A DNA stretch of 64,000 bases from the NCBI RefSeq assembly GCF_020694005.1, contig NZ_CP073013.1, forward strand, positions 1,746,578 through 1,810,577, given 5' to 3'. Positions 31,719 through 33,629 of this stretch are shown here, one piece after another. Each line of letters opens with the position of its first letter. The stretch's first letter is position 1. A program made the translations under genes and the position numbers. Below the pieces are notes generated by a model. The model saw nothing but the letters and a program-made list of their open reading frames with translations. It did not search any database and was not told where the DNA came from. This DNA is from Marinomonas profundi (GTDB taxonomy: Bacteria; Pseudomonadota; Gammaproteobacteria; Pseudomonadales; Marinomonadaceae).

Positions 31719-31934
31719 TTATTTGGCGTCTTGTTTGTTTTCGTTTGGTTGATTTTGTGCTTTTTTCGCGGCTTTTTCTTGATCCATTTTGATCGAGTTG
31801 CGATAACCGCCAAGCGCCGCTAAAGCGCCAATGATGAAACTCATATACAGCGGAATTTCAAATAACATCGTGATGCTGATAAAGACGCAGCCGACGGCTA
31901 AACCTTCCAGATAGGGTTTAAATTGCTTTGGCAT
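31719..31934 (-). CDS. Small membrane protein coupled to the truncated hemoglobin
   Basis: A 71-residue protein with two predicted transmembrane helices (about residues 9-26 and 28-44) and a charged C-terminal tail (KMDQEKAAKKAQNQPNENKQ). GGAGA precedes the ATG. Its stop is separated from the globin ATG by a single base. No family is recognised with confidence. Coupling suggests that it anchors or assists the globin, but this is inference only. Confidence 0.7.
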   Translation of the reverse strand: MPKQFKPYLEGLAVGCVFISITMLFEIPLYMSFIIGALAALGGYRNSIKMDQEKAAKKAQNQPNENKQDAK

Positions 31935-32000
31935 TGGGCTTCTCCGAGAGATAAAAATAAACGCGAGTTTAGCAAAGTTTTACGACGATGTGCGCCTGAT

Positions 32001-32252
32001 TGTGGAAAAAAGCACCACTTATCCCATATTAGAAACAGTGAATTTGATCGGATTGATGGTGTCTATTTTTGTGGGTAAGTCCGCGCTAAACGAGAACCAT
32101 ACCTGATAGTAGCCAGTTTTTGATCCGTTAATGCACAAAATCAGTAAAAACCGCCTCTAAATGTGAATAAATGTTATTATTTTCCACAGATCGGCGCGTT
32201 CCGGTTTTCCAATTTTGATTATTTTTTATCCACAGATTTTGAAATATCCACA
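32001..32252. promoter_or_regulatory. Cluster of DnaA boxes
   Basis: Four perfect TTWTNCACA boxes lie within about 235 bp: 32001-32009 (minus), 32162-32170 (minus), 32180-32188 (plus) and 32226-32234 (plus, the strong form TTATCCACA). Three one-mismatch boxes are at 32070-32078, 32129-32137 and 32244-32252. By base composition about four perfect boxes would be expected in the whole 64 kb. The stretch is AT-rich and has three GATC sites. It could be a DnaA-titration or reactivation locus or a DnaA-controlled promoter; there are no typical origin neighbours (dnaA, mnmG). Confidence 0.75.
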
Positions 32253-32264
32253 AGTGAGACTCGT

Positions 32265-33629
32265 GTGTCAAAGTTATCCCCCAGTGCTATTTTTCACTCG
32301 TATCGTGCTAATGCGGTATTAAATCAAAAAATTTGGCGTATGGCGTGGCCGCCGATGGTGTCGAATATCACCACGCCGCTGCTTGGCTTGGTCGATACGG
32401 CGGTGGTTGGGCATTTGGGAACGGCAACGCATTTGGCTGCGGTGGCGATTGGCGCGAGTATTTTTAGTTTTCTATTTTGGGCGTTTGGTTTTTTGCGCAT
32501 GGGTTCAACCGGATTAACCGCGCAAGCGCTTGGACAAGGCGATGACAGACGCGTGCGTGAATTGCTGCTGCAATCGATTTTGATGGGCGTGTTTATCGGC
32601 TTGATGCTGATTCTATTTCGAGCGCCCTTAATTGATTTGGCGATTACCCTGATGGCGCCCAGCGCTGAAGTGGAGCCTTGGGCGCGATTGTATTGTGAAG
32701 CGCGGATTTTCAGCGCGCCAGCTGTGTTGGCGGGTTACGCCTTAATGGGGTGGTTCTTTGGCGTGCAATATTCCAAAGGGCCGTTGTGGATGTTGTTGGT
32801 GATCAATGTCGCCAACATGATTCTCGATTATTTCGCGGTATATGGCTTGGGCATGGCGAGTGACGGCGTGGCGTGGGCAACGGTGGCGGCGCATTATATC
32901 GGCGTGACGGTAGCGGCTGTGTTGGCTTGGCATAAGCTAAAAGGCTTTTCGGGCCATGTGCCATTCAGTGTGTTGGCAAAATGGCGCGAATACACGGCCT
33001 TGGTCAAAGTAAACCGCTATCTGTTTGTGCGCACGATTCTCTTGTTGTTGGTGATGTTGTTTTTTACTGCTCAAGGCGCGCGCCAAGGGGATTCGATTCT
33101 GGCCGCCAACGCGGTTTTGCTGACGTTTTTGATGATTATATCTAACGCCTTGGATGGCTTTGCTTTTTCGGTAGAAGCCTTGTGTGGCGAATATTATGGT
33201 CGTAAAGACAAAGCCAATTTTAAAAAAGTGATTCAGCTATCGACCTATTGGGCGCTGCTCGCTGCGGTTGTTTTGATGCTGATATTTTGGCTTTTTGGTA
33301 ATCAAATCATTGCCTTACTGACCAGCGTGCAAAGCGTTCGAGACGATGCTGCTCTGTACCTACCTTGGCTTATTTTCTTTCCTTTGTTGGGTATTTGGTC
33401 TTTTATGCTGGATGGCATTTTCATCGGCACTACCAGCGTAAAACAAATGCAAAACACCATGATTATTTGTGTGGTTGGTGTGTTCTTCCCTGTATGGTTT
33501 ATCACCCAAGACCTTGGTAACCATGGTTTATGGTTTAGCCAAGCCATGCTGTTTATCGCCAGAGCCATTACCCTTTATTGGTGTTACCTGCAAAACATGA
33601 AAAAAGGCGTGTGGTTCGCGAATGCTTAA
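32265..33629 (+). CDS. dinF: MATE-family efflux transporter, DinF type
   Basis: A multi-spanning MATE transporter (12 predicted helices) that exports drugs or metabolites in exchange for cations. It aligns with E. coli DinF at IWRMAWPPMVSNITTPLLGLVDTAVVGHLG and FLRMGSTGLTAQALGQGD. The frame is open from a GTG at 32163, but that would include several DnaA boxes and lacks a ribosome binding site. GTG at 32265 with AAGTGAG upstream gives 454 residues, near the family length. No LexA site was seen, unlike E. coli dinF. Confidence 0.88.
   Translation: MSKLSPSAIFHSYRANAVLNQKIWRMAWPPMVSNITTPLLGLVDTAVVGHLGTATHLAAVAIGASIFSFLFWAFGFLRMGSTGLTAQALGQGDDRRVRELLLQSILMGVFIGLMLILFRAPLIDLAITLMAPSAEVEPWARLYCEARIFSAPAVLAGYALMGWFFGVQYSKGPLWMLLVINVANMILDYFAVYGLGMASDGVAWATVAAHYIGVTVAAVLAWHKLKGFSGHVPFSVLAKWREYTALVKVNRYLFVRTILLLLVMLFFTAQGARQGDSILAANAVLLTFLMIISNALDGFAFSVEALCGEYYGRKDKANFKKVIQLSTYWALLAAVVLMLIFWLFGNQIIALLTSVQSVRDDAALYLPWLIFFPLLGIWSFMLDGIFIGTTSVKQMQNTMIICVVGVFFPVWFITQDLGNHGLWFSQAMLFIARAITLYWCYLQNMKKGVWFANA

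Follow-up and report, generated by a model that had tools for sequence, protein, structure and literature searches.

Does the dense group of DnaA boxes between two divergent genes of Marinomonas profundi mark a place where DnaA acts and, if so, what would DnaA do there? The original prediction had offered three answers: a titration site like datA, a DnaA-reactivating site like the DARS loci, or a secondary or alternative origin. The features of the locus are as follows, numbered from the first nucleotide of the window (the whole 64-kb stretch of DNA that was analysed).

31719..31934, minus strand: conserved 71-aa ORF, a flanking gene; no known family matched
31935..32264, no strand: 330 bp intergenic region holding the cluster, bounded by the divergent 71-aa ORF and by the conserved start codon of MATE
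32001..32009, minus strand: DnaA box B1, perfect, TTTTCCACA; perfect in 44/48 genus genomes, 97% column identity
32019..32027, plus strand: half-box B2, TTATCC(C/A), a conserved footprint that diverges from B1 at 18 bp
32070..32078, minus strand: DnaA box B3, TTACCCACA, one mismatch in M. profundi
32129..32137, plus strand: box with one mismatch, TAATGCACA, without conservation
32162..32170, minus strand: DnaA box B4, TTATTCACA; perfect in 40/48, at most one mismatch in 47/48
32180..32188, plus strand: DnaA box B5, TTTTCCACA; perfect in 31/48, at most one mismatch in 38/48
32226..32234, plus strand: DnaA box B6, TTATCCACA; perfect in 39/48
32244..32252, plus strand: DnaA box B7, ATATCCACA, one mismatch; repeats B6 in direct orientation at 18 bp
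32265..33629, plus strand: MATE-family transporter gene (DinF-like; NCBIfam matE), start GTG at 32265

The region 32001-32252 contains four perfect TTWTNCACA boxes (two per strand) and three boxes with one mismatch, just as the original prediction had counted them in the roughly 250 bp before the MATE gene. B4 and B5 are the divergent perfect pair that it had described, with a 9 bp gap (18 bp from start to start) at 32162-32170 and 32180-32188, and the three GATC sites that it saw interspersed fall at 32046, 32122 and 32189. The expectation of about four perfect boxes per 64 kb was too low; the computed value is about 8.6 and nine are observed, so the window overall is not enriched. What is unusual is the clustering, with four perfect boxes within 234 bp. 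In a simulation of 200 windows of 64 kb the maximum was three perfect boxes per 256 bp and there were never four. A genome-wide census of TTWTNCACA (3.65 Mb) found at least 354 boxes, and 354 boxes would give an expectation of some 0.0007 clusters of four within this width across the genome. Box clustering beyond chance and outside oriC, as looked for in a titration-type DnaA-box cluster, is therefore present here. Among the matches listed, other close DnaA-box pairs in the same genome are at 2013775-2014004, 2234449-2234475 and 2665655-2665834.

The regions upstream of the MATE gene were aligned in 48 genomes of the genus (M. profundi and 47 relatives). The boxes appear as conserved footprints within an intergenic region that otherwise drifts; at least two perfect boxes are kept in 47/47 relatives and at least three in 46/47. 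Across the 48 genomes their order (-,-,+,+) and the spacings of 161, 18 and 46 bp are mostly kept. Mean identity at B1, B3, B4, B5 and B6 is 0.91 against a regional background of 0.56, a value that random sets of 9-mers matched once in 100,000, and when the five aligned box positions are slid rigidly the score drops at all shifts. The B4/B5 pair has at most one mismatch in total in 38/48 genomes. B3 is perfect in 16 species and has one mismatch in 27/48 genomes; it reads TTATCCACA in 14 species and TTACCCACA or similar in most others. B2 is weak in M. profundi (three mismatches) and has one mismatch in nine species, mostly as TTATCCAGA. B7 is absent from ten aligned genomes, which have a deletion gap where it begins. 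An offset of 18 bp is common to three pairs, B1/B2 and B4/B5 being divergent and B6/B7 direct.

The scan of related Marinomonas genomes that the original prediction had put forward as its own test therefore found box order and spacing conserved, and the candidate DnaA-binding locus, judged by order, orientation and spacing, holds genus-wide. Because the cluster is far beyond chance and the boxes are conserved footprints, there is strong support for reading 32001-32252 as a putative DnaA-binding locus under selection throughout Marinomonas (in the GTDB sense). By analogy with DnaA boxes elsewhere, the step from conserved boxes to DnaA binding would be close to certain. The GATC sites show no conservation across the aligned genomes and there is no match to SeqA in the M. 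profundi genome; involvement of GATC and SeqA was rejected on these grounds.

The original prediction had also claimed that the long N-terminus of the MATE reading frame, from 32163, is non-coding, and this was borne out. When the frame is read back from its conserved part, relatives hit in-frame stops at varying places, and the start codon at 32265 is conserved as GTG, sometimes ATG or TTG, in the 30 genomes compared in correct register. All the boxes lie upstream of this start, so the extension is best taken as non-coding.

This arrangement raises the main rival to a titration role, namely that DnaA controls transcription of the MATE gene. The boxes would then be operators that link the DinF-like transporter, and possibly two more genes, the divergent 71-aa ORF and a globin gene, to the DnaA cycle. 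The boxes are flanked by a divergent gene pair that keeps its order alongside the cluster in nearly all genomes; B7 precedes the MATE start codon (32265) by 12 bp, and B1 lies upstream of the 71-aa ORF, about 67 bp from its start. Because the flanking gene pair travels with the cluster, a role in MATE regulation is inseparable by synteny. There is also a conserved motif other than a box, GTTTAGCAAAGTTT, at 31966-31983 (near 31968), just upstream of the 71-aa ORF, which is perhaps promoter DNA of that divergent gene. However, a promoter scan between the divergent genes gave matches no better than chance, a span of 250 bp exceeds what a simple operator needs, and the boxes are retained in two genomes of the genus in which the 71-aa ORF is undetectable. 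This last finding is also a point in favour of a DnaA sink. Moreover, MATE orthologues in 20 genomes from other families have no cluster upstream (one has a single isolated box, 824 bp away), so the cluster is not a generic feature of MATE genes, and a general MATE operator was ruled out. The absence of an Rfam match for the region likewise ruled out a known RNA element. Operators of this kind are possible, but we regard them as unlikely.

The window covers positions 1746578-1810577 of the single contig of the M. profundi genome; dnaA is at genome position 1696125 and the cluster is 82 kb further on. The original description, which set the locus apart from the usual origin genes, holds only in part, dnaA being 82 kb off. 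In the 11 genomes checked the cluster is 36-90 kb downstream of dnaA, and in the ten other than M. profundi the adjoining MATE gene is on the same, downstream side. The conserved origin-proximal position looked for in a titration-type cluster is thus found in all 11.

There are two oriC-like clusters in the M. profundi genome, one in the rpmH-dnaA interval (1695821-1696047) and one beside mnmG (1679991-1680399). The latter is AT-rich, contains 13-mer-like sequence and carries six perfect DnaA boxes that share one strand; similar clusters recur in relatives, in five further loci, and the GC skew usually changes nearby. In M. profundi the skew changes sign near mnmG and not at dnaA. Because the skew changes there and the AT-rich box cluster recurs in relatives, oriC is probably at mnmG and of the E. 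coli type, 16 kb from dnaA, perhaps together with rpmH-dnaA. The interval between mnmE and mnmG is the E. coli-type position of oriC. In another family a multi-box cluster that includes the divergent 9 bp pair is flanked by genes reading as mnmE and mnmG, and several families of the order have divergent DnaA boxes separated by exactly 9 bp adjoining dnaA.

A secondary or alternative origin at 32001-32252 would be in keeping with the divergent 9-bp-gap pair, an arrangement that Marinomonas also has in its rpmH-dnaA cluster and that several other families have adjoining dnaA. The rest of the evidence goes against it. The GC skew around the locus, which the original prediction had proposed computing, has no switch there and changes near mnmG, some 98 kb from the cluster. 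The A+T content reaches a maximum of 76% per 50 bp, at a position that is not conserved, in comparison with 86-88% over 50 bp at the oriC-like clusters, and there are no 13-mers. Because there is neither a skew switch nor a conserved AT-rich unwinding element, the locus is not an ordinary origin. The skew, the A+T profile and the two oriC-like clusters elsewhere led to the rejection of a secondary origin, which we consider extremely improbable.

A DnaA-reactivating site, the second of the predicted roles, might be suspected from the presence of several boxes that face opposite ways. E. coli DARS1 and DARS2, scanned likewise, gave a core of one box on the plus strand followed by minus-strand boxes at 14 bp and 12 bp. 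This three-box core, in which boxes I and II converge at 14 bp and box III follows at 12 bp, is absent from the cluster, whose own opposed boxes form divergent pairs with an 18 bp offset. The DARS-like reading was rejected on this geometry and is very improbable.

The cluster could instead be a functional equivalent of datA, that is, a platform for ATP hydrolysis (DDAH) and not a passive sink. The locus is non-coding, multi-box and origin-proximal, the M. profundi genome has a gene for IHF-beta, and with Hda-dependent hydrolysis seemingly missing (see below) another hydrolysis route might be needed. IHF is, however, essential for datA (PMC10950094), and no conserved IHF site (WATCARNNNNTTR at up to one mismatch) was found in the cluster in the 48 genomes, although the consensus is degenerate and a weak site could escape. 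The box geometry is also unlike that of E. coli datA. We consider this equivalent improbable. Of the original prediction, then, a titration site that is datA-like in role is the best reading, while identity with datA itself is not borne out by the IHF search.

Hda is the partner of DnaA in its regulatory inactivation. In the M. profundi genome the Hda model (TIGR03420) matched only DnaA itself and, at 25.6 bits, another AAA protein of 454 aa at 620428. The latter we take to be RarA-like and not Hda, and an Hda hidden under the weak match was discounted for this reason. The model does match in relatives, with Hda above the cut-off in 162 of the 195 genomes sampled from the order (14 candidates scored per genome), but no match at 1e-40 was found in any of eight Marinomonas genomes, all at least 99% complete. 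Several other genomes of the order without a match fall in one family. These searches are suggestive of a loss of Hda in Marinomonas. The apparent loss of Hda and the cluster are seen together in a single clade, so that the link between them amounts to one event.

Taken together, the data lead us to favour, by a little, the view that the cluster acts throughout the genus as a DnaA sink close to the origin, doubled shortly after initiation. We infer that DnaA binds at the cluster, that its binding has a negative effect on initiation and, because Hda and SeqA were not found, that the genus relies on the sink. The cluster would be copied in the first minutes of a replication round; copying would double the high-affinity boxes, and free DnaA would fall before oriC could refire. 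The pairing of boxes at a fixed offset of 18 bp may permit DnaA dimers or short oligomers, and through these ATP hydrolysis might also be stimulated in a datA-like way. Against the sink, five to seven boxes are few beside at least 354 in the genome, which by counting makes it a small one unless its affinity is unusually high. A further proposal, that Marinomonas lacks both Hda-dependent inactivation of DnaA and SeqA and controls initiation mainly through an origin-proximal sink of its own design, is made tentatively and is rather doubtful. If true, it would describe a natural gammaproteobacterium that runs on titration and not on an Hda-driven ATP/ADP switch.

The cluster bears on whether titration alone can time replication. 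In theory titration alone stops premature reinitiation in fast growth only with sites near the origin, and models in which the sites are so placed make titration work at high growth rates (PMC9640692). There is experimental support for titration in E. coli, where boxes are also concentrated near oriC (PMC12371093). Marinomonas has a sequence-constrained origin-proximal cluster and apparently neither Hda nor SeqA, which would make the genus a natural test case, and its interest would grow if the loss of Hda holds and the cluster affects initiation.

Among known systems, the oriC-proximal DnaA-box clusters (DBCs) of B. subtilis (Okumura 2012, cited through PMC5295017) are alike in being near the origin, outside it and proposed to lower free DnaA; according to PMC5295017, deletion of six such extra-origin clusters led to early initiation. 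They differ in belonging to another phylum and in being six redundant clusters, as against one in Marinomonas among the matches listed, and they are known from deletion whereas the Marinomonas cluster is known from its sequence. An origin-proximal cluster in S. coelicolor has been described as analogous (PMC4585315, PMC10950094). This cluster (Smulczyk-Krawczyszyn 2006, via PMC4585315) is close to oriC and is said to repress untimely initiation; it too is from another phylum, and is likened by description and not by sequence.

With E. coli datA the Marinomonas cluster has in common several boxes in non-coding DNA, a place on the chromosome's origin side and a candidate role as negative regulator, but it has no conserved IHF site, a different box geometry and gene context, and is much nearer the origin. 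With DARS1 and DARS2 it shares a non-coding cluster of opposed boxes without the convergent 14/12 bp core. The oriC-like clusters of its own genome have consensus boxes too, and the one at rpmH-dnaA shares the divergent 9-bp-gap pair; 32001-32252, in contrast, has no conserved AT-rich unwinding element, no skew switch and another box order. The layout, with three pairs at an 18 bp offset of which two are divergent and one is direct, is its own. In summary, the general kind of locus is already known, its geometry is distinct and its regulatory context is notable. As a sink it would add a gammaproteobacterial genus to the bacteria in which origin-proximal DnaA-box clusters are described, B. subtilis and S. 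coelicolor, with a geometry unlike that of datA or the DARS loci.
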